DNA of 64,000 nucleotides from Sphaerochaeta halotolerans. Lineage in GTDB: Bacteria > Spirochaetota > Spirochaetia > Sphaerochaetales > Sphaerochaetaceae. The DNA is taken from positions 124,001 to 188,000 of the forward strand of contig NZ_QUWK01000001.1 of the NCBI RefSeq assembly GCF_003429665.1, read 5' to 3'. The notes under the pieces were generated by a model. That model saw nothing but the letters and a program-made list of their open reading frames with translations. It was not told the DNA's origin and made no database searches. This document shows positions 34,523 to 45,083 of the stretch, in pieces; position 1 is the first letter of the stretch, and each line of letters begins with the position of its first letter. Position numbers and translations under genes: made by a program.

Positions 34523-35506
34523 ATGAAGAAAAGACCGTTTGGTACAAATAGGACCTTGGTTTCCGAGGTTGGACTGGGGACCTGGCAGATTGGTGGGTCA
34601 TGGGGTACCGTAGAGGATGAGACCGCCATGAAGATCCTCCAGACTGCAGCTGATTCTGGAATCACCTTTTTTGATACGGCTGATGTATATGGAGATGGAA
34701 GAAGCGAGAAGTTTATTGGGAAATTCCTCAAATCTCGTCGTGATTCCTTCTTTGTTGCAACAAAATTGGGGCGTGGTGGAGATCCTGGATGGCCTGGGAA
34801 TTTCACCCCGGAAGCGATGATCCGCCACACTGAAAACTCTCTCTCCCGTCTCGGAGTTGAACGCTTGGATTTAATCCAGCTGCACTGTATTCCTCAAGCG
34901 GTCCTGGAAGAAGGAAGCGTCTTTGATGTCCTCAGGGATTTGAAAAAGCAGGGAAAGATTGCTGACTTCGGGGCAAGTGTTGAGACTGTGGAAGAGGGCA
35001 TTGTCTGTCTCAAGCAGGAAGGTATTGCGTCTCTACAGGTCATCTTCAATATTTTCCGCCAGAAATTGATCACCGACCTCTTTGGTAAGGCCAAGGAGAA
35101 AGAGGTTTCCATTATTGCCCGTGTTCCATTGGCTAGTGGACTTCTCTCCGGCAAGATGACGAAGAGCACCACCTTTGATAAGAGTGATCACCGTAACTTC
35201 AATCGCGATGGAGCTGCCTTCAACGTAGGTGAGACGTTTGCAGGCATTCCGTTTGAGAAGGGAGTTGAGCTAGCTGAAGAGCTCAAGGCTCTGAAGCCTG
35301 AGGGGATGACCCTTGCCCAGATGGCACTTCGCTGGATACTCGACTTTGATGCAGTTTCGGTGGTAATCCCGGGTGCCAGCCGACCATCTCAGGTGCTGGA
35401 TAATGCTGCAATCTCCGATCTTCCTCCTCTCTCAGATGCGTTGCATCAGAAATTGGAGAAGTTCTATCAGGACAAGGTGGCTCAACACATCCGTGGTCTC
35501 TATTAA
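34523..35506 (+). CDS. Aldo/keto reductase
   Basis: A 327-residue NADPH-dependent TIM-barrel oxidoreductase. The catalytic tetrad is visible: Asp and Tyr in TFFDTADVYGDGRSE, Lys in FVATKLGRGG and His in LDLIQLHCI. The cofactor-binding end reads VSVVIPGASRPSQVLDN. It belongs to the YdbC/YajO-like group, acting on small aldehydes or sugars. A good GGAGG precedes the ATG, and a terminator (35534-35558) separates it from the following operon. Confidence 0.9.
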   Translation: MKKRPFGTNRTLVSEVGLGTWQIGGSWGTVEDETAMKILQTAADSGITFFDTADVYGDGRSEKFIGKFLKSRRDSFFVATKLGRGGDPGWPGNFTPEAMIRHTENSLSRLGVERLDLIQLHCIPQAVLEEGSVFDVLRDLKKQGKIADFGASVETVEEGIVCLKQEGIASLQVIFNIFRQKLITDLFGKAKEKEVSIIARVPLASGLLSGKMTKSTTFDKSDHRNFNRDGAAFNVGETFAGIPFEKGVELAEELKALKPEGMTLAQMALRWILDFDAVSVVIPGASRPSQVLDNAAISDLPPLSDALHQKLEKFYQDKVAQHIRGLY

Positions 35507-35533
35507 TCAATAATACTATTCAAAGTTTTTATT

Positions 35534-35565
35534 CAGGGCCCCTTGCTTAGGGGTCCTGGTCTTTT
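35534..35565 (+). terminator. Rho-independent terminator after aldo/keto reductase
   Basis: CAGGGCCCCT and AGGGGTCCTG form a 10-bp stem with one mismatch and a 5-nt loop, followed by GTCTTTTG. It closes the aldo/keto reductase transcript before the sugar-phosphate operon. Confidence 0.75.
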
Positions 35566-35598
35566 GCTTGCCTCAGAGGGGACTCCTTGAATTTTTCC

Positions 35599-35650
35599 TT
35601 GACAGATTGAGAAATGTACTTCATTCTTCATATGTATGATGTATGATGTT
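35599..35650 (+). promoter_or_regulatory. Promoter/operator region of the sugar-phosphate operon
   Basis: TTGACA (35599-35604) is followed at 17 nt by a weak CATTCT, and then by a direct repeat TATGATG-TATGATG (35635-35648). A FadR-type GntR gene ends the operon, so the repeat is a candidate operator (inference). Confidence 0.4.
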
Positions 35651-35672
35651 ATAGGAATTGGGAGGAGTATGC

Positions 35673-36329
35673 ATGGCTGAACATACGATTGCTGCTATTT
35701 ATACCGGAGCTGCATTGGTGAAACCATTGTCAGATCTGATGAAAGAGATTCTTGGTGATTACAAGGTGATGAACATACTTGATGACAGCATGATTGCTGA
35801 CATCATTGAGGCAGGTGGTATGACCAAGGCTGTGAAGAGACGGCTTTATGGATACTATGAGATTGCCTGTGCATCAGGTGCTGAGCTGATTCTCAACACC
35901 TGCTCCTCCATCGGGGATGCTGTCTACGGGGCACGAGAGTTCTTTCCCATCCCGATTATTAGAATTGATGAACCCATGGCTCGGCGGGCAATTGAACTCT
36001 CTGACTCAATCGCTGTCCTGGCAACACTCCCTACCACCTTGGATCCAACCATACGGTTGCTGCAAAGGTGTGCACAGGAGGCAGGGAAATCAATCAAGAC
36101 CATCAGTGCATTGGCTGATGGTGCATTCCCTGCCATCACCGCCGGGGATGCAGAAACCCATGATCGACTGATCGCAGAGACGGCTAAAAAGGTATCGGAT
36201 TCCTGTGATGTAATCCTTCTTGCCCAAGGCTCTATGGCTCGAATGGAGAAGCCGCTTGCAGAACTTACCGGCAAGACTGTGCTCAGCAGCCCCCGCTTGG
36301 GTGTTGAGCAGATCAAGGGACTATTGTAG
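35673..36329 (+). CDS. Asp/Glu racemase-fold protein lacking the second catalytic cysteine
   Basis: A 218-residue protein of the aspartate/glutamate/hydantoin racemase superfamily. The first half has the expected ILNTCSSIGDAVYGARE with the catalytic cysteine. At the second site, where racemases have a Cys in a GCxSM-type motif, it reads VILLAQGSMARM, so a two-base racemase mechanism is not possible. A decarboxylase, isomerase or lyase role is more likely. The ATG at 35673 has GGAGG seven nucleotides ahead. It is first in an operon with split transketolase, transaldolase and cupin genes, so its substrate is probably an acidic sugar or keto acid. Confidence 0.8.
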   Translation: MAEHTIAAIYTGAALVKPLSDLMKEILGDYKVMNILDDSMIADIIEAGGMTKAVKRRLYGYYEIACASGAELILNTCSSIGDAVYGAREFFPIPIIRIDEPMARRAIELSDSIAVLATLPTTLDPTIRLLQRCAQEAGKSIKTISALADGAFPAITAGDAETHDRLIAETAKKVSDSCDVILLAQGSMARMEKPLAELTGKTVLSSPRLGVEQIKGLL

Positions 36330-36338
36330 GAGGAAGCT

Positions 36339-37157
36339 ATGGATCTTGAAGCGTTGAATGCGATCTCTTTGCAGCTCAGGAGAGATGTCGTGGAGATGGT
36401 TTACCGAACCAAGGATGGTCATCCAGGTCCCAGTTTTTCAGTTGCAGACATTATTACCGCCCTCTACTTTGAGGTGATGAATATAGATTCATCCAACCCA
36501 GATATGATTGATCGCGACCGTTTTGTGCTTTCTAAGGGACACTCCTGTCCCGTGTTGTATGCAGCACTTGCAAGAAGAGGCTATTTCCCTGTAGAGGATT
36601 TGTATACCCTACGGTACCTTCATTCCAAGTTGCAAGGGCATCCCTATGCACCAAAGACGAAAGGTCTTGATGCAACCACAGGTTCATTGGGAAACGGGGT
36701 TTCCATTGGACTGGGTATGGCATTGGCTGCTCGAATCCAGAAACAAGCAAACCTGGTATATGTAGTTACCGGTGACGGTGAACTTGGAGAAGGAATGATC
36801 TGGGAAGCAGCAATGGCCGCAAGTCATCAGAAGGCAGCAAACCTGACAGTATTCATAGACAACAACAACTACCAGAGTGGGGGAACCGTCTCAGAGATAT
36901 CAGGCCCATACCCGATTGAGGATAAGTGGAAAGCTTTTGGATGGCATACCCAAAGCATTGACGGACATGATATTTCCCAGATTTTGCATGCGGTTGAGAA
37001 AGCCAAGGAAGAAAGGGAACGCCCCTCTGCAATCATCTGCAAGACCGTCAAGGGAAACGGGGTTTCCTTCATGGTAGGAGAGAACTCCTGGCATAAACGG
37101 GTCTATACCGATGAAGAGTACCGTATAGCCATGAAGGAACTGGGAGGTGTGGTATGA
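36339..37157 (+). CDS. Transketolase, N-terminal (ThDP pyrophosphate-binding) subunit
   Basis: A 272-residue half-transketolase. The thiamine diphosphate motif is GDGELGEGMIWEAAMAA ending at FIDNNNYQSGG, and the start has RDVVEMVYRTKDGHPGPSFSVADI with the substrate His. It needs the C-terminal subunit encoded next, whose start overlaps its stop by 4 bp. Split transketolases are common in anaerobes; a second copy in a small operon, as here, usually serves a specific sugar rather than the general pentose phosphate pathway. Confidence 0.94.
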   Translation: MDLEALNAISLQLRRDVVEMVYRTKDGHPGPSFSVADIITALYFEVMNIDSSNPDMIDRDRFVLSKGHSCPVLYAALARRGYFPVEDLYTLRYLHSKLQGHPYAPKTKGLDATTGSLGNGVSIGLGMALAARIQKQANLVYVVTGDGELGEGMIWEAAMAASHQKAANLTVFIDNNNYQSGGTVSEISGPYPIEDKWKAFGWHTQSIDGHDISQILHAVEKAKEERERPSAIICKTVKGNGVSFMVGENSWHKRVYTDEEYRIAMKELGGVV

Positions 37158-38104
37158 GCAGTGTTGACAGTACCAGAATTGGATTCAGGGATGCATTGTT
37201 GCATTTGGCAAAAGAGCGTGAGGATATCGTATTTGTTTCCACCGACTCACTGAAAGTGGTGAAAGGTGAACCCTTTTTGGAAGTCTTTCCTGACCGTGTC
37301 ATTGAACTTGGGATTTCTGAACAGAACGGGGTTGGGGTAGCCAGTGGGCTTGCTTCCAGTGGCCTCTTGCCCTACATCTGCACGTATGCAGGATTTCTGA
37401 CAATGCGTGCTTGTGAGCAAATGCGTACCTTTGTATCCTATCCTAACCTGAAAGTCCGTTTTGTCGGGGCCAACGGTGGATTGCACGGAGGAAACCGGGA
37501 AGGAGTCTCCCATCAGTTCATTGAGGATGTGGGAATTCTCAGGACGATGCCCAATTTCACCATTCTCTGTCCGGCAGATGGTAACCAGGTCTATCAAGCA
37601 ATGCTGGCAAGTGTTGATATTGAGGGACCAGTATACATACGAATTGGTAGTGGGCGTGAAGAGAAAGTCTTTCCAGATGGGACACCATTCCCTTTAGGCA
37701 AGATTCGAACCTTGATAGATGAAGGGAGTGATGTGGCGCTCTTTTGCCATGGTTTTATTACCAACCGGGTAATTGAAGCTGCAAAACAGCTGAAAGAAGA
37801 GGGCGTTGGGGTGAAGGTTGTGGAGGTTGCAACCATCAAACCATTAGACCAAGCAGGAATTGCAACTATTCTTGAAAAGACAGGATGTGCGGTTACTATT
37901 GAAGACCATACCATCATCAATGGTCTTGGTAGTGCGATTGCAGAAGTAATTGCAGAAGGTAACCCTGCCTATCTGGTGCGTTTGGGATTACAGGATGTGT
38001 ATGGTGAATCCGGCTTCCCTGATGAACTGCTTGATGCCTACGGTATGTCTGTACAGGATATTGTCGAGGGAGCCAAGAGGGCCATCAAACATACAAAGGT
38101 ATAA
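37154..38104 (+). CDS. Transketolase, C-terminal subunit
   Basis: A 316-residue partner of the preceding subunit. It holds the pyrimidine-binding domain (ELGISEQNGVGVASGLASSG, with the catalytic Glu activating thiamine) and the C-terminal domain (VKVVEVATIKPLDQAGI, TIEDHTIINGLGSAIAE). The 4-bp overlap with the N-terminal subunit gene gives equal synthesis. Next downstream is the relic of a TRAP transporter and then the transaldolase gene. Confidence 0.94.
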   Translation: MSSVDSTRIGFRDALLHLAKEREDIVFVSTDSLKVVKGEPFLEVFPDRVIELGISEQNGVGVASGLASSGLLPYICTYAGFLTMRACEQMRTFVSYPNLKVRFVGANGGLHGGNREGVSHQFIEDVGILRTMPNFTILCPADGNQVYQAMLASVDIEGPVYIRIGSGREEKVFPDGTPFPLGKIRTLIDEGSDVALFCHGFITNRVIEAAKQLKEEGVGVKVVEVATIKPLDQAGIATILEKTGCAVTIEDHTIINGLGSAIAEVIAEGNPAYLVRLGLQDVYGESGFPDELLDAYGMSVQDIVEGAKRAIKHTKV

Positions 38105-38150
38105 TTCCTCAGGCTTACCTGAGGATACAAACAAAAGGAGATAGAAACAA

Positions 38151-38413
38151 ATGAAGAAGAAAATTGTTGTATTGGTGCTTGTCACCTTGTTGGCAACGGC
38201 TCTGTTTGCACAAGGGCAGGCGGAAAAGAGTGGTCCAACTGCCGAGAATCCGTTGGTATGAGCGTATATATGCTCAGTCCAATCGTGAAGCTTCCCGTGG
38301 GGAAGGTATTCAAAGCAGTCTTGCCGTACCTGTTCTCCCTTCTGGTGGCATTGGTGGTTCTCACCTATGTTCCACAGATTTCCCTGTGGCTTCCGTCACT
38401 ATTTTTCAAGTAG
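38151..38413 (+). pseudogene. Scar of a deleted TRAP transporter operon (dctP start joined to dctM end)
   Basis: Two tiny frames lie between the transketolase and transaldolase genes. The first (38151-38261, 36 codons, AAAGGAG upstream) is a perfect binding-protein signal peptide, MKKKIVVLVLVTLLATALFA then QGQAEKSGPTAENPLV, and stops where the mature domain should begin. The second (38258-38413, 51 codons) is the last helix of a TRAP large permease, with VGKVFKAVLPYLFSLLVALVV and TYVPQISLWLP, the DctM C-terminal signature. The simplest reading is one deletion that removed the body of dctP, all of dctQ and most of dctM. The outer ends of the transport genes survive in the correct order. Confidence 0.8.
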
Positions 38414-38423
38414 AGGTGTGTAT

Positions 38424-39473
38424 ATGAAATCTACCTATTTTCACCGTGTGCATCAGCAGACCAAGACTCGGTTCTGGATCAACAACCCGACCATTGAGCA
38501 AGCCAAGCGGGCGATAGAGGAAGGTGCAATTGGTTGCACCACCAACCCAAGTTATGTTTCAAAGCTCTTTGAATCAGAAGAGGACATGCTTGTTGTTAAA
38601 CGAACGATTGATCTATTGCTTCCCTATGAGAAAGATGATTCAGTTCTTGCCTCCAAGGTTCAACAGATGATGGTAGGCCGTCTTGCAGATGTATTTCTTC
38701 CGCTCTATCGTTCCAGTGGGGGGACAGAGGGATTGGTCACCATCCAAGGGAATCCGTTTGCCGAGAGGGATACCAGCTTGATTGTAAAAGAAGGGTTGGA
38801 GAACCGTAAGATTGCTGAGAATATCTGCATTAAGATACCGGTAACTCAGTGGGGTATTGAGGCAATCCGCACCATGGTGGAGCATACTATCCCCACGATG
38901 GCAACAGAGGTTATGAGTTTGAGTCAGACTATTGCCATTTGTGAAGCCTACCAGAAGGTTAGCCAAGAGAGCGGGAACGCCCCTCCTTTCTATGTTACCC
39001 ACATCACCGGTATCCTCGATGACCACTTCAAGCGTGTCATCAAGGAGCAACGGCTATCCATTGATGAGGAGTTGGCTGGATATGCAGGGCTATCCATCGC
39101 AAAGAAAGAGTATAAGCTGATGAAAGAGAGAGGCTATCCAGGAATCATGATCGGTGGAGGAGCGAGAAAGCTTGAAGATTTCACTGAGCTGGTGGGTGGA
39201 GATTTGGGCATCACCATCAACTGGAAAGGGACTGCCGATGTCCTGATTGAACAAGACAAGGAGGTGGTTGATCGTATCGGCAATACTCTGGATGAACAAC
39301 AGATACTGACGCTCAGAAAGGAACTTCCTGACTACCAGCGTGCTTTTGATCTTGATGGAATGACTGTTGATGAGTACTACGACTATGGCGGGGTTGAGCT
39401 GTTCCGCTCTTCGTTCCAGAAGGGATGGAATGCCCTGCTTGCCTTGATTGCTGAGAGAAGGGGAAATAACTAA
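38424..39473 (+). CDS. Transaldolase-family protein
   Basis: A 349-residue TIM-barrel enzyme of the transaldolase family. Typical elements are RFWINNPTIEQAKRAIEEGAIGCTTNPS at the start, the Schiff-base lysine in ENICIKIPVTQWGIEAI, and IMIGGGARKLEDFTELVGGDLGITINWKG. It is longer than the 215-residue TalC type and not a close match to classical TalB, so it may cleave or transfer an unusual sugar phosphate. The ATG at 38424 has AGAGG upstream and starts 10 bp after the TRAP relic. The cupin gene overlaps its stop by 1 bp. Confidence 0.88.
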   Translation: MKSTYFHRVHQQTKTRFWINNPTIEQAKRAIEEGAIGCTTNPSYVSKLFESEEDMLVVKRTIDLLLPYEKDDSVLASKVQQMMVGRLADVFLPLYRSSGGTEGLVTIQGNPFAERDTSLIVKEGLENRKIAENICIKIPVTQWGIEAIRTMVEHTIPTMATEVMSLSQTIAICEAYQKVSQESGNAPPFYVTHITGILDDHFKRVIKEQRLSIDEELAGYAGLSIAKKEYKLMKERGYPGIMIGGGARKLEDFTELVGGDLGITINWKGTADVLIEQDKEVVDRIGNTLDEQQILTLRKELPDYQRAFDLDGMTVDEYYDYGGVELFRSSFQKGWNALLALIAERRGNN

Positions 39474-39814
39474 TGGACCAGAAGAAACATAGAGGAAATC
39501 TGCATACAGACAAGAGAGTGGAACGTGCAAAGGGAATTGAACGGGTTACCTTGACCTATGACCAGGATAGCATGATCTGCTATTTTTACCTTGAGAAAGG
39601 ATCCACGTTGGATATGCATACCCACCCAGAAAGCCAGAATGGCTTTGTGGTAAAGGGCCATATCCATTTCATCAAGGGCGATGGCGAGATTTTAGATCTG
39701 CACGCTGGGGATGCATACTACTTCCCTTCGATGGATCCCCATGGTTCCAAGATCCTTGAGGATACTGAACTCATAGAGTGTTTCTCCCCTTCCAGGGATG
39801 ATTACAAGGATTAA
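39473..39814 (+). CDS. Small cupin-domain protein
   Basis: A 113-residue single cupin. Metal-ligand motifs are visible as THPESQNGFVVKGHIHF (His, Gln-type first motif: MHTHPESQ) and FPSMDPHGSKIL (His of the second motif). Such proteins are sugar or keto-acid isomerases, dioxygenases or ligand-binding factors; in this operon an isomerase or epimerase of the catabolised sugar is the best guess. The start codon overlaps the transaldolase stop by 1 bp. Its stop lies 66 bp before the GntR gene. Confidence 0.85.
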   Translation: MDQKKHRGNLHTDKRVERAKGIERVTLTYDQDSMICYFYLEKGSTLDMHTHPESQNGFVVKGHIHFIKGDGEILDLHAGDAYYFPSMDPHGSKILEDTELIECFSPSRDDYKD

Positions 39815-39880
39815 TGATTCTTCGCTTTCCTCACGGGTTCTTGGTATGATACAGTGCTGTATGCAGGGGGAATTATTTCC

Positions 39881-40585
39881 ATGGAAGACATATTCAGGGT
39901 ACACGAAGGCCGCCAGTCAGCGGTTGAATTGGTGATAGAGAAAATCAAGGAGCTCTTGATCGACCAGAAGCTTTCTCCCGGAGATATGATTCCCAATGAA
40001 ATCTCCCTTGCCGAGAGCCTGAAAGTTGGGCGTGGTACGGTGCGTGAAGCCTTGAAAATTCTTTCTGCCTATGGGGTGGTTGAAATCAAGCAAGGGCATG
40101 GAACGTTTGTTTCCAGCGCTTCAAACAAACGACTCTTCGACCCCCAGCTGTTCCAGATACTCGTCCAGGATCGTGATTATAAATCACTCACCCAAGTGAG
40201 GCAATTATTGGAAGAGGGTATCGTCAAATTAGTCATCGAGTCGGCAAGCGATGACGAGTTGGCCTTACTCGATCAAACAATGAGGGAGTTCCAGGAGGCA
40301 CTTAGAGATGAACAGGCTTCTGCCCAGAAAGCGGGTGCCCTGGACCTGCATTATCATCGCTTGCTTGCACGGTTTTCTCACAACAGTATCGTGGAGAATA
40401 TCTATACCTTCGTAATCGAGTTGTTCACCAAGACCATCAATCCCATCCATGAGGGAGTTGATGAGGTACATCGGCAGTTACATCAGGCGATTATGGATAG
40501 AAATAGTGAGAAGGCTGTGGCAGCAGTCCACTCTCACACGGCAATCTGGGTCTGGGCCTACAAAGAGGCCCATCCGGAGCATTAA
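39881..40585 (+). CDS. GntR-family regulator, FadR subfamily (FCD domain)
   Basis: A regulator of about 234 residues. Residues 8-75 form the winged helix (IKELLIDQKLSPGDMIPNEISLAESLKVGRGTVREALKILSAYGVVEIKQGHGTFV), and the C-terminal two-thirds is the helical FCD ligand domain with the metal-binding His positions in LHYHRLLARFSHN and AVHSHTAIW. It probably senses an intermediate of the upstream operon and represses it. The ATG at 39881 has GGGGG ten nucleotides ahead; an in-frame GTG at 39854 is possible. An ATACAG-TG-CTGTAT dyad (39848-39861 region) lies in its own leader. It converges on the PPDK-like gene with a 4-bp overlap of the ends. Confidence 0.9.
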   Translation: MEDIFRVHEGRQSAVELVIEKIKELLIDQKLSPGDMIPNEISLAESLKVGRGTVREALKILSAYGVVEIKQGHGTFVSSASNKRLFDPQLFQILVQDRDYKSLTQVRQLLEEGIVKLVIESASDDELALLDQTMREFQEALRDEQASAQKAGALDLHYHRLLARFSHNSIVENIYTFVIELFTKTINPIHEGVDEVHRQLHQAIMDRNSEKAVAAVHSHTAIWVWAYKEAHPEH

Positions 40586-43521
40586 TCGATGAGTACTACT
40601 CCCTCTCCGTCGAAGCCGTTGACCTTTATGGTCAATGGCTTTTCGCTTCTTGCATGAATGAAGTGTTCCGTTTCTGAAACCATCGGGAGTGTTTTAAGCT
40701 TCTCATACTGCATTGAACCAGATCGATATGCCGGGTTTATTGTTAAATAGAGACATCCAAGACTCGTCATGTTCTGGAAGAAGTGGGTTCCTTGGCTAGG
40801 TTCCACTTGGAACCCCTGCAAACCAGTTTCAACGATGACCTTGCTTCGGGATATTTGCGACCAAGTCACTGGGATACCCAGCCAAGGGTCACAACTACCC
40901 AATCTTCCCGCTACTACCAATACATAGTCTCTCTCCGCAACAACCATTGCTGCATTGAGCTTGCCGAGTTCCTTGGCCATTCCTCTCATTGCAGAGGCAG
41001 AGAAGTTTTCAACCTTTACATAGATAATGTCTTGTACGTGGTCTATCTTTCCGTTTCCCATGACCACATGGGAATGGATGGCAGCCCTCTCTCGTTCCTT
41101 TTCGCTGATGGTTACATCATTCTCCTCGTTCCCTGCTGCAATCGGGCGAATCTGGAGAAGGCTGAATTCCCTCATCTTTGGGGCAGCTCGATTCAGGTTT
41201 ACGGCAAATTCTATCTCCACTGGTTTTCCCATTGCCTCTGTTCCCAACTGAAGCACATCCTTGACGATAGAGGCCAAGGGGAATGCGTCATACTTCAGTA
41301 TGCCGTTGAAGGTTATGACCTTCTCTCCCTCAGTCCTGACAGACTCACTAAGCATACCACTGGCCAAATCATAGGTGCTTGCAATGTATCTGATAGCTTC
41401 TGGATATGCCCATGATTCACGGAAATTGAGCAGTTCAAGATTCTCAAGTCCCCCTTCTTCAAGCGGATGGTAGCCGTTTTTCATATTTAGGGCGTAGAAG
41501 GTACTCTGGCTGCTGGTCTGGTTGCCTCCAAGGAACTGTGCTGGTCGCTTTGGATGGGTAGGGCTGAAACGCAGGGCCGATCCGTTGTCCACTACCGATT
41601 TGCCAAAGCCGAAGCTGAGCATACCAACACCATCCTCAGGTTTTTCTCCTCCCAAGGGATAGTAGTTCAGGGAGCGGGCAACCCCACTGATGTTTGGATA
41701 CCAGTAAGGGCCATGGTTGCTTCCTATGACCTGTTGGATAATGACGGCCATCTTCTCATCCTCCAGCATATGCTCGGTTGCCTTGAGGTACTCCTTTGCA
41801 CTACGGAAGAAGGTGGAAGCCCAGACTGCGCGAACCGCATCACAGAGTTCCTGGAGCCTTGTCTCGTCGGATCCTTGGTTGGGAAGCATGCACGTTTCAT
41901 ATACTCCTGCAAATGGCTGGTAGTGTGAGTCTTCCAGAAGACTGGAAGAACGGACACAGATTGGCTGGTGGATAACTTGGACGATTTCAGCGAGGTTCAG
42001 TACCAACTCATTGCTCAGTGGTTTGGAGAGGAATATTTTAAGCAAGGTCTCATCAGGAAGATCTCCTGAAGCGATATCATTCAGATCGTTCTCTTCAAGG
42101 AACTGGGTGAACTGGTCGGTGGTTACCACTACGGTACGTGGAATGGAGAGATATACATCCGGGTATTTTTCCGGGAGTTTGGCGGCCCGTAGCACCATGT
42201 CAATGAAGGCGAGGCCACGGCCCTTTCCCCCTAGCGATCCTCCCCCAATTCTGCTGAAGAACAGGGTCTCGTCATAGTTGTTCCTACTGAACTGGGCTAT
42301 GACTCCCTTGGTCCTTTCCTTGCGGTAGTTGCGGATGATTTCAGTCATCTGTTGTTGTACTACCTTTGCGTCTCCGTTTGCAGGAATTTTCAGGTCCTTG
42401 ATTCTTGCTGCAATGGCATAGAGGCTCTGTGCCCTGAGCCAACGTGAAAAGTCATTTCGCCTGGAATGGAAATCAAAGCTTTTCGTCGGGATCTTGGGAA
42501 GGACCCTTTGCAGGTCGCGCATAGTTTCAGCCCGGGCAATCTCCTCCATGGTATCGGGGTCGCGGAAAATGAAGGGTCCGAACCCATAATGCTTGGTCAT
42601 GAATTTATTGAGTTCAAACAGGAGTGCTGAGTTGTTTTTCCATAGAAAGTAGGCCCCTGCGTCTTCTACCATCTCCTGGACAGTGTTGTCGCTGCTTTGA
42701 ATCAAGATTGGAATTTCAGGATCATTTGCGTGGACCATTTTTGTAAGATGCAGGCCGGCATATTTGTCTTGCTTTCCCTCTTTAAGATAGGACATGTCGG
42801 TGATGATTCCCAGGATATTGTGCCGATACTTTGTATAGAGTTCCTGGGCCTCCTCATAGGTCCTGGCAAGCGCAATCTTAGGTCTGCCACGCATCCTGAG
42901 GGTTTTCCCCCAGTTGTTCAGTGCCTCGAGGATGGCTGAGCGGTTCTGTTGGATCAAGGTGGTGTACATCATGGGTAGGTAGGAAGAATAGAACCGTACA
43001 GAGTCCTCTACCAGAATGATGAGTTGGACATCCGCTTCCTGGGTATCATGTTCCAGGTTCATTCCGTCCTCAACCAATTTGATCATGGCTAGGAAGATGG
43101 TGGGGTCCCCCTGCCAGTAGAAGAAGTAGTCGATGTCCTTGCCGTCTGATCCCTTGATCAGCTTGTTTCTCTTGTGGCTTGAAGAGGGGGAAAGTGCGAT
43201 AACCGGCATTTGCGGGTCGATCTTCTTGATGGTCGTTGCCAATTGCTCAACGGAGTCGGTCCCGAGGTCAAGCATGGTGACCACCAAATCAAACTTCCTT
43301 TGATTCAATAGGTTCAGCGCTTCTTCAGCTGTACTGGTGTGGGTGAATTTTGGGGGATTGTTCAGCCCAAGCTGGGTATATTCGAGATATAACTCCTCCT
43401 CAACCCGTCCGTCTTCCTCCAAGAGAAAACGGTCATAGTCGTTGCAGATGAGCAGCACGTTGTAGATATGTTTCAGCATGAGGTTACTGAACGGCAACCA
43501 CGTTGGGTCAAGTGTATACAT
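40582..43521 (-). CDS. Double receiver plus PPDK/PEP-synthase N-terminal (ATP-grasp) protein
   Basis: A 979-residue cytoplasmic protein. Residues about 15-155 and 165-320 are two receiver-like domains. The first has Met where the phospho-aspartate should be (DLVVTMLDLG); the second keeps it (LGIITDMSYLKEG). Residues about 430-830 are the pyruvate phosphate dikinase N-terminal ATP-binding domain (GGGSLGGKGRGLAFID, ICVRSSSLLEDSHYQPFAGVYETC, LLQIRPI). The central phosphohistidine domain and the PEP/pyruvate barrel are absent, so it is not PPDK or PEP synthase. It may phosphorylate another protein or act as a regulatory ATPase. It is monocistronic and diverges from gdhA. Confidence 0.82.
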   Translation of the reverse strand: MYTLDPTWLPFSNLMLKHIYNVLLICNDYDRFLLEEDGRVEEELYLEYTQLGLNNPPKFTHTSTAEEALNLLNQRKFDLVVTMLDLGTDSVEQLATTIKKIDPQMPVIALSPSSSHKRNKLIKGSDGKDIDYFFYWQGDPTIFLAMIKLVEDGMNLEHDTQEADVQLIILVEDSVRFYSSYLPMMYTTLIQQNRSAILEALNNWGKTLRMRGRPKIALARTYEEAQELYTKYRHNILGIITDMSYLKEGKQDKYAGLHLTKMVHANDPEIPILIQSSDNTVQEMVEDAGAYFLWKNNSALLFELNKFMTKHYGFGPFIFRDPDTMEEIARAETMRDLQRVLPKIPTKSFDFHSRRNDFSRWLRAQSLYAIAARIKDLKIPANGDAKVVQQQMTEIIRNYRKERTKGVIAQFSRNNYDETLFFSRIGGGSLGGKGRGLAFIDMVLRAAKLPEKYPDVYLSIPRTVVVTTDQFTQFLEENDLNDIASGDLPDETLLKIFLSKPLSNELVLNLAEIVQVIHQPICVRSSSLLEDSHYQPFAGVYETCMLPNQGSDETRLQELCDAVRAVWASTFFRSAKEYLKATEHMLEDEKMAVIIQQVIGSNHGPYWYPNISGVARSLNYYPLGGEKPEDGVGMLSFGFGKSVVDNGSALRFSPTHPKRPAQFLGGNQTSSQSTFYALNMKNGYHPLEEGGLENLELLNFRESWAYPEAIRYIASTYDLASGMLSESVRTEGEKVITFNGILKYDAFPLASIVKDVLQLGTEAMGKPVEIEFAVNLNRAAPKMREFSLLQIRPIAAGNEENDVTISEKERERAAIHSHVVMGNGKIDHVQDIIYVKVENFSASAMRGMAKELGKLNAAMVVAERDYVLVVAGRLGSCDPWLGIPVTWSQISRSKVIVETGLQGFQVEPSQGTHFFQNMTSLGCLYLTINPAYRSGSMQYEKLKTLPMVSETEHFIHARSEKPLTIKVNGFDGEGVVLID

Positions 43522-43745
43522 AGCAGGTATTTTATCATGATAGACCGAGTTTGCATATCATTTCAGTATATTCAAAAAATTGATTAAAAATTCAATTTTA
43601 CTGTATATTTTTGTAAGATAGGGTAACTATATAAAATATAATCACGCTTATCATAATTTAACGTTGACATATTGGTATGGTAGGTTTACGCTTTTTGAAC
43701 AAGCAACGTCCTGTTGCAGCACAGACCAAGGAGAAAAGTCTAGGT
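43522..43745 (+). promoter_or_regulatory. gdhA upstream region
   Basis: An AT-rich 224-bp divergent gap. For gdhA a TTGACA (43664-43669) with a weak TACGCT at 17 nt, and a TATAAT (43637-43642), are visible; AAGGAG lies at 43729-43734. An AAATTGA / TCAATTT dyad (about 43577-43598) could be a binding site. Confidence 0.4.
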
Positions 43746-45083
43746 ATGTATACCCTTGAATCAGTAATGAAAGAACTGGAGAGAAAGAATCCAGGCGAAC
43801 CTGAATTCATCCAGGCAGTCGGCGAGGTGGTGGAAAGTGTTCTCAGCGTGGTCAATGAGAACCCGGTGTATGAAAAGCATCGGATTCTCGAGAGAATGAC
43901 CGAACCTGACCGTGTGTACACCTTTCGAGTCGAGTGGGAGGATGATGAAGGAAATCTTCAAGTAAACCGTGGATACCGCGTGCAGTTCAACAATGCAATC
44001 GGTCCCTATAAGGGAGGTTTACGCTTTCACTCCAGTGTTACCCTTGGAACATTGAAGTTTCTAGGGTTTGAACAGACTCTGAAAAACAGCCTGACCACAC
44101 TTCCCATGGGCGGTGGCAAGGGCGGTAGTGATTTCAATCCCCGTGGCAAGAGCGACAGCGAAATCCTTCGCTTCTGCCGTTCTTTCATGACTGAGTTACA
44201 GAAATATATCGGTCCTGAGACAGACGTGCCTGCCGGGGATATCGGAGTAGGAGCGCGTGAGATTGGATTTCTCTACGGACAATACAAGCGTATCAGGGGA
44301 GAGAATACTGGTGTGTTGACCGGTAAAGGCCTCGGCTTTGGAGGATCCTTGGTCCGCCCAGAGGCAACTGGATACGGCACAATGTACTTTGCCCAAGCTA
44401 TGCTTGAAACGCATCAGGACAGTCTGGAAGGAAAACGAATCTCCTTAAGTGGCTTTGGAAACGTTGCTTGGGGAGCTGCTATGAAGGCGACCGAATTGGG
44501 AGCCAAGGTCGTAGCAATCAGTGGTCCAGATGGGTATATCTATGATGAAGAGGGAGTAGGAACGCCCGAAAAGTGGGCATTCATGCAGTATCTGCGTTCT
44601 TGCAACAATGATGTTGTTGCACCCTATGCGGAACGCTTTGGGGCAAAATTCGTTGCAGGAAAGAAGCCTTGGGAGGTCCCTGTTGATCTTGCTTTCCCCT
44701 GTGCCATCCAGAATGAGCTTGACCTGGAGGATGCCAGAACGTTGGTTGCCAATGGGATCAAGTACGTGGTGGAGACTTCAAACATGGGATGCACGGCTGA
44801 AGCAGCAGCCTATTTCATCAAGCAGAGAATTCCCTATGCACCTGGAAAGGCTGCAAATGCCGGTGGTGTTGCGGTAAGTGGTCTCGAGATGAGCCAGAAT
44901 GCCATGCATCTTTCTTGGAGTGCTGAGGAGGTCGATGAGAAACTGAAGGGTATCATGGGAAAGATTCATCAAGCTTGTATTACCGAGGGAAAGGAAGATG
45001 ATGGATATGTCAATTACGTGAAGGGAGCGAATATTGCTGGCTTCAAGAAGGTTGCCGATACCATGGTTCAGCTCGGTTACTAG
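43746..45083 (+). CDS. gdhA: NADP-type glutamate dehydrogenase
   Basis: Interconverts 2-oxoglutarate plus ammonia and glutamate, the main ammonia-assimilating reaction in many anaerobes. From the ATG at 43746 the protein has 445 residues, the standard hexameric GDH length, beginning MYTLESVMKELERKNPGE. The substrate pocket is in GPYKGGLRFH and PMGGGKGGSDFNP (catalytic lysine), and the nucleotide fold is in SLSGFGNVAWGAA. The frame continues 23 codons upstream, but without family similarity. A terminator-like hairpin follows at 45113. Confidence 0.96.
   Translation: MYTLESVMKELERKNPGEPEFIQAVGEVVESVLSVVNENPVYEKHRILERMTEPDRVYTFRVEWEDDEGNLQVNRGYRVQFNNAIGPYKGGLRFHSSVTLGTLKFLGFEQTLKNSLTTLPMGGGKGGSDFNPRGKSDSEILRFCRSFMTELQKYIGPETDVPAGDIGVGAREIGFLYGQYKRIRGENTGVLTGKGLGFGGSLVRPEATGYGTMYFAQAMLETHQDSLEGKRISLSGFGNVAWGAAMKATELGAKVVAISGPDGYIYDEEGVGTPEKWAFMQYLRSCNNDVVAPYAERFGAKFVAGKKPWEVPVDLAFPCAIQNELDLEDARTLVANGIKYVVETSNMGCTAEAAAYFIKQRIPYAPGKAANAGGVAVSGLEMSQNAMHLSWSAEEVDEKLKGIMGKIHQACITEGKEDDGYVNYVKGANIAGFKKVADTMVQLGY

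Follow-up and report, generated by a model that had tools for sequence, protein, structure and literature searches.

We analyzed a 64,000-nucleotide stretch of the Sphaerochaeta halotolerans genome (contig NZ_QUWK01000001.1, positions 124,001 to 188,000), referred to here as the window, with attention to the open reading frame (ORF) on its minus strand at positions 40582 to 43521. This ORF of 979 amino acids is a real gene: >150 genome matches were found, most of those listed being full length, at 39 to 95% identity. Judged by Pfam and full-length relatives, its product consists of a degenerate receiver (REC1), an intact receiver (REC2), a helical linker, an ATP-grasp domain (PPDK_N) of the type found in pyruvate phosphate dikinase (PPDK) and phosphoenolpyruvate (PEP) synthase, and a C-terminal swivel-like domain; we refer to it as the dikinase. 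Its divergent neighbor on the plus strand is gdhA (43677 to 45083), which encodes a hexameric family I glutamate dehydrogenase (GDH) of 468 amino acids as called (NCBIfam PRK14030, E value 1.6e-233), with M24 probably being the true start. The two genes are separated by a 155-bp intergenic region (43522 to 43676), and the divergent layout is kept in Sphaerochaetales and several Bacteroidales. The GDH neighbor is a new result that was not noticed in a preliminary description of this DNA. Because the dikinase gene adjoins a GDH gene in many unrelated bacteria, gut Bacteroides among them, the protein is probably a dedicated controller of ammonia uptake in those organisms.

GDH is the most frequent neighbor within 5 kb of the dikinase gene, being present at 22 of 33 nonredundant loci with long flanks, while the next family reached 10. 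Among 49 family members with <70% mutual identity, 35 have gdh within 700 bp of the dikinase gene; the estimated chance expectation, for genomes of about 3 Mb with one to three copies of gdh, is <1%. The linkage spans Spirochaetota, Bacteroidota, and Krumholzibacteriota. Within those 35, gdh lies upstream on the same strand in 21 (often at 11 to 140 bp), is divergent in 12, and lies downstream in 2, and convergent cases were seen at the 90% identity level. That proximity is kept while orientation changes makes common descent of the locus an insufficient explanation.

The linkage extends to remote relatives, which are 27 to 32% identical over the ATP-grasp and C-terminal domains and carry other N-terminal halves in place of the receivers: 19 of 30 adjoin gdh. 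A 583-amino-acid relative, 39% identical, comprises the core alone without receivers. In a Bacteroidota operon seen at two loci (L232, 7891 to 14215; L233, 9578 to 15926), a 429-amino-acid GDH is followed by dikinase forms of 583 to 600 and then 1,064 amino acids; this GDH belongs to another subfamily and is 33% identical to that of the window. Another stretch (L235) holds two gdh-dikinase pairs, and in one genome (G211) one GDH gene adjoins a dikinase gene of the receiver type and a second GDH gene adjoins one of the remote type. Together, the remote relatives and the two-pair genomes indicate that GDH stays linked to the core, whereas the sensor portion varies. The functional association of dikinase and GDH is thus well supported; the mechanism proposed for it below is putative. 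Two observations temper a strict dependence. Many genomes contain family I GDH without the dikinase, so this enzyme does not universally need it, and in some Bacteroides the dikinase gene no longer adjoins gdh.

Pfam analysis of the 979-amino-acid protein returned receiver domains and PPDK_N (residues 429 to 812, E value 4e-46), the rest falling below threshold, and NCBIfam gave only partial, subthreshold matches to PEP synthase-like models. PADLOC models gave no match, so a role in antiphage defense is unsupported. In the full-length AlphaFold2 model (mean predicted local distance difference test [pLDDT] score, 84.9), two receivers, a linker, the ATP-grasp domain, and the C-terminal domain can be distinguished; against solved structures, both receivers matched at Z scores of 14 to 15 and the ATP-grasp domain at 26, to rifampin phosphotransferase. 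REC1 (residues 18 to 152; 43066 to 43470, minus strand, as are all dikinase features below) is recognized by Pfam, by conservation, and by its match to the PorX receiver (Z 14.6). It departs from the two-component receiver pattern of an acidic pair, phospho-aspartate, Thr/Ser, and Lys, with M83 at the phospho-aspartate position and W136, kept in 54 of 57 aligned sequences, at the lysine position. REC2 (residues 165 to 316; 42574 to 43029), delimited by conservation and a match to the ComE receiver (Z 15.2), has the full set: the acidic pair E172/D173, D242, S276, and K295. D242 (codon at 42796 to 42798), the expected phospho-aspartate, is Asp in 53 of 61 rows and invariant in 17 receiver-bearing relatives. 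The linker (residues 317 to 405; 42307 to 42573) is helical in the model and gave a weak DUF5752 match (E value 0.001 to 0.004) below the cutoff.

The ATP-grasp domain (residues 410 to 796; 41134 to 42294) retains the catalytic K, R, E, and Q-x-R that characterize the PPDK/PEP synthase type and matches rifampin phosphotransferase by VIA (Z 26). Across 61 relatives, residues G431, K433, R524-S525-S526, E530, D531, E771, and Q790 do not vary, and Arg is retained at R792 in 59. At the sequence level, the ATP-grasp domain thus appears competent and REC2 phosphorylatable. Residues 410 to 979 of the full model, i.e., the ATP-grasp and C-terminal domains, align with residues 10 to 466 of PEP synthase (PDB entry 2ols, Z 25.7) and 3 to 510 of PPDK (1dik, Z 18.8), both domains being covered. 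The PEP/pyruvate TIM barrel found no Pfam match, and the protein stops after its 183-residue C-terminal domain. Two receivers with the first lacking its phospho-aspartate, an ATP-grasp domain with intact motifs, and the absence of a PEP domain had all been proposed in the preliminary description, and each is borne out. It had also held that the protein cannot make PEP; that conclusion is supported by the missing barrel. Relative to PEP synthase and PPDK, the dikinase has the same ATP-grasp catalytic residues and a C-terminal domain predicted to share the swivelling fold in the same domain order, but it lacks both the barrel and the PF00391 signature and bears two receivers in front.

The C-terminal domain (residues 797 to 979; 40585 to 41133), which belongs to no Pfam family, was modeled alone with a confident fold (pLDDT, 90.8). 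Its best VIA match was the His domain of rifampin phosphotransferase (5fbu, Z 7.3 over 111 residues), followed by the phosphoryl-carrier domain of PPDK (2fm4, Z 7.1), maize PPDK (Z 6.9 to 7.1), the extra domain of pyruvate kinase (2e28, Z 6.7), and Enzyme I (Z 6.3); phosphohistidine-type domains made up the majority of the top 17 structural rows. H913 (codon at 40783 to 40785), in the sequence SQGTHFF of the motif SxGTHFF, is the only His invariant across the 61 relatives, at identities down to ∼22%, and is preceded by Thr in 58 of them and by Ser otherwise. The modeled elements run strand 831 to 835, helix 842 to 861, strand 866 to 871, helix 887 to 890, and strand 893 to 899, after which SQGT-H913 opens helix 913 to 920, followed by strand 924 to 928. 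The central domain of PPDK has the order strand, helix, strand, helix, strand, GGMTS-H455 opening a helix, and strand. By element order, H913 would therefore take the place of the catalytic H455, and a role as phosphocarrier appears likely. The earlier view that a phosphohistidine domain is missing is probably mistaken: PF00391 is absent, but a swivel fold with an invariant His is predicted, and a His domain within the protein itself is very probable. This result comes close to what the preliminary description had named as contradicting its view, a hidden TGGxxSH-type phosphohistidine segment in the last 150 residues, although the motif here is SQGTH and the link is through the predicted fold only.

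Several results weigh against this assignment. The VIA Z scores of ∼7 (6 to 7 for a swivelling beta/beta/alpha fold with His at a helix N terminus) are only middling, and sequence profiles are unsupportive. The protein gave no Pfam match to PF00391 (PEP-utilizers, GGxTSH), and the C-terminal domains of 56 relatives, searched against Pfam at an E value of 10, yielded no family and only scattered chance matches. HHalign against PEP-utilizers failed (probability, 1.5%), its insignificant alignment setting GRxGS..LGIP, rather than GTHFF, on GGMTSH..GIP; Foldseek with this domain alone returned no match, and hmmsearch against the PDB found nothing informative, a viral coat VP4 match (E value 0.6) being dismissed as chance. 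These data accommodate a noncovalent regulator that associates with GDH and signals through conformational changes driven by ATP binding or hydrolysis, with a degenerate swivel (GRxGSS for GGxTSH) and a structural H913. The profiles, if anything, favor GRxGS as the canonical site, and the extra domain of Bacillus stearothermophilus pyruvate kinase, matched here, is to our knowledge a swivel relative with no known phosphotransfer role. We nevertheless consider this explanation unlikely, as H913 and the ATP-grasp catalytic residues are jointly invariant in very divergent relatives and, in the model, the GRxGS register lacks the helix-strand unit required ahead of a canonical His.

Among known systems, VadK (Rv1127c) of Mycobacterium tuberculosis is, like the dikinase, related to PPDK but devoid of the barrel; it undergoes autophosphorylation on His, has been proposed as a regulator of metabolic enzymes, and reportedly tunes a metabolic pathway (PMC13400623). 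It differs in being described as an ATP-binding and a His domain without receivers, in that its His was found by overlay on PPDK, and in its partners, which are methylcitrate-cycle enzymes and not GDH. VadK offers a precedent for a regulator of the kind proposed here. The ATP-grasp fold is also shared with HpeHI (9goj, Z 19) and rifampin phosphotransferase (5hv1, Z 26), the latter also providing the best match of the C-terminal domain. The two-component arrangement of HpeHI and phenylphosphate synthase, in which a separate gene encodes the His component, was not found: PF00391 occurs in the genome only in a 924-amino-acid PPDK and a 584-amino-acid protein of Enzyme I size. The search for stand-alone PEP-utilizer His domains recommended earlier thus came back empty, and the accompanying idea that a separate His-domain protein is phosphorylated in trans loses its footing, the more so since the dikinase very probably has a His domain of its own. 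Phosphoryl transfer to some metabolite connected with glutamate or 2-oxoglutarate, in the manner of rifampin phosphotransferase and HpeHI, would fit the biochemically characterized non-PPDK proteins with this ATP-grasp domain, all of which, so far as is known and VadK excepted, act on small molecules (rifampin phosphotransferase; HpeHI, PMC12167813). We rate such a small-molecule dikinase as quite improbable: HpeHI and rifampin phosphotransferase carry or pair with a substrate-binding part, whereas no acceptor-binding domain was found here; the exchangeable sensor-like N termini suggest regulation; and the partner is one enzyme drawn from two subfamilies rather than a pathway.

The presence of a phosphohistidine-type domain and an intact receiver on one chain could point instead to a dikinase-driven phosphorelay, in which phosphorylated H913 would donate to D242 of the receiver in the same chain, or to a different receiver, in place of a histidine kinase, leaving the GDH link indirect. 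Receiver-less relatives, namely the 583-amino-acid form and those with other N-terminal domains, retain both the core and the GDH neighbor, so the receiver is not the general acceptor, and we regard a phosphorelay as very unlikely. We give about an even chance to a truncated dikinase that serves GDH specifically and whose gating is left to sensor domains that can be exchanged. By homology, its ATP-grasp domain would use ATP to phosphorylate H913 of the swivelling domain, with AMP and either phosphate (Pi) or pyrophosphate (PPi) as products, as in PEP synthase and PPDK. With no PEP barrel to receive it, the phosphoryl group would go to a partner, of which GDH itself or a site bound to GDH is the likeliest, and this hand-over would set GDH activity. 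REC2 would gate the reaction once D242 is phosphorylated by a histidine kinase, and other N-terminal domains would serve as the gate in relatives. Autophosphorylation, GDH as target, and gating by REC2 are the steps that we infer. The earlier suggestion that the protein is a switch not previously described, and not an enzyme that makes PEP, is supported by the missing barrel, conserved architecture, intact receiver, and constant GDH neighbor.

A candidate target site was sought by comparing the alignment columns of GDHs encoded beside a dikinase with those of GDHs lacking one. In a first comparison using 19 orphan GDHs, S120 ranked first and H118 fifth; these residues lie in the active-site loop RFHSSV of the window GDH (H118-x-S120, 44028 to 44036, plus strand). 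In a larger comparison, H118 was present in 91 of 91 GDHs beside a dikinase versus 26 of 35 without, and S120 in 89 of 91 versus 19 of 35, both contrasts being weaker than with the 19 orphans. At the RFHxSV loop, the sequences RFSKNV, RFNKNV, and RFAPNL are found in the three closest GDHs that lack a dikinase. On the tree, the support recedes: 2.6 of 11 independent pairs agree and none opposes, which is not significant, and two other GDH columns outscore H118/S120. Since significance was not reached on the tree, we treat this speculative site as a lead only. Three dikinase-less Spirochaetal genomes (G031, G045, and G030; loci L305, L306, and L307, respectively) encode GDHs 68 to 73% identical to that of the window in which both H118 and S120 are lost.

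The dikinase family occurs in nearly all sampled members of the genus of the window and in many Spirochaetota, in one Krumholzibacteriota metagenome-assembled genome, and in 49 of 247 sampled Bacteroidota (42 full or core matches and 7 receiver-only matches near an E value of 1e-4). In the Hoylesella family (L074), 106 of 121 genomes have it, including 77 of 80 in one genus that, by gene order, is apparently Bacteroides. GDH is a main route of ammonia assimilation in Bacteroides-type gut bacteria. The gene is therefore near-universal in this apparent Bacteroides genus and common in the wider family, yet no described function was found: a literature search returned no paper that links PPDK_N with GDH or describes the REC-REC-PPDK_N architecture. 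A Parabacteroides protein of the same architecture encoded beside gdhA (WP_041525632.1, 43% identical over 99%) is annotated by domain only, as "PEP/pyruvate-binding domain-containing protein," with no function described.

A 6.0-Mb genome of the apparent Bacteroides genus (L295) has the order gdh, dikinase (990 amino acids), catalase, gdh, and malic enzyme, the catalase and malic enzyme assignments having been made by eye. In Bacteroides thetaiotaomicron, BT_1971 is a catalase, and BT_1970 and BT_1973 are GDHs; on this basis, BT_1972 is probably the orthologue of the dikinase. By its title, as given in the reference list of PMC4539542, a 1996 report (Baggio and Morrison, J Bacteriol 178:7212) ascribes an effect on Bacteroides GDH activity to "trans-acting gene(s)." BT_1972 may be that factor, although a catalase gene would lie between if the gdhA of that study were BT_1970. 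In the 1996 work, a 3-kb downstream segment supplied in trans is said to have been required for GDH activity in Escherichia coli; at 2.97 kb, the dikinase family gene is a natural candidate, and we found no later identification of the gene(s) in the literature. The fullest version of our proposal, which we offer tentatively and consider possible but doubtful, would make these proteins regulatory kinases of a new class. In this version, a dikinase that lacks the barrel and whose phosphohistidine domain has diverged would switch GDH covalently, would be connected to different sensors in different lineages, and would be the trans-acting factor for Bacteroides GDH activity. If true, dominant gut organisms would have dedicated control of nitrogen assimilation, the 1996 genetic observation would gain a molecular candidate, and the dikinase fold would extend from metabolism to regulation through a domain absent from the family libraries searched.

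Further observations concern the variant forms and surroundings of the gene. Some remote relatives (1,062 to 1,064 amino acids) add a C-terminal nucleotidyltransferase domain, which the ∼1,060-amino-acid form of Spirochaetota (L119, L121) also bears, and the pair of 583- to 600- and 1,064-amino-acid forms recurs in about ten of the surveyed genomes. The N-terminal ∼290 residues of remote relatives (L122, L265 to L294) matched no convincing Pfam or NCBIfam family, and a KaiC-like or GAF-like reading of them, made by eye only, was set aside; some of these genomes also contain ORFs of ∼430 to 460 amino acids with homology to this N-terminal half. In large genomes of the genus of G450 (L298, L300, L301), the dikinase gene lies away from gdh, beside a 1,301-amino-acid ORF. 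One dikinase gene (L162, genome G440) is broken by an in-frame TGA, reflecting a pseudogene or an assembly error. Within the window, positions 34523 to 40585 hold what reads by eye as a sugar catabolism-like cluster, with an aldo/keto reductase, an Asp/Glu racemase-like protein, a long transaldolase-like protein, a cupin, a GntR-type regulator, and a transketolase encoded in two parts by separate genes (36339 and 37154).

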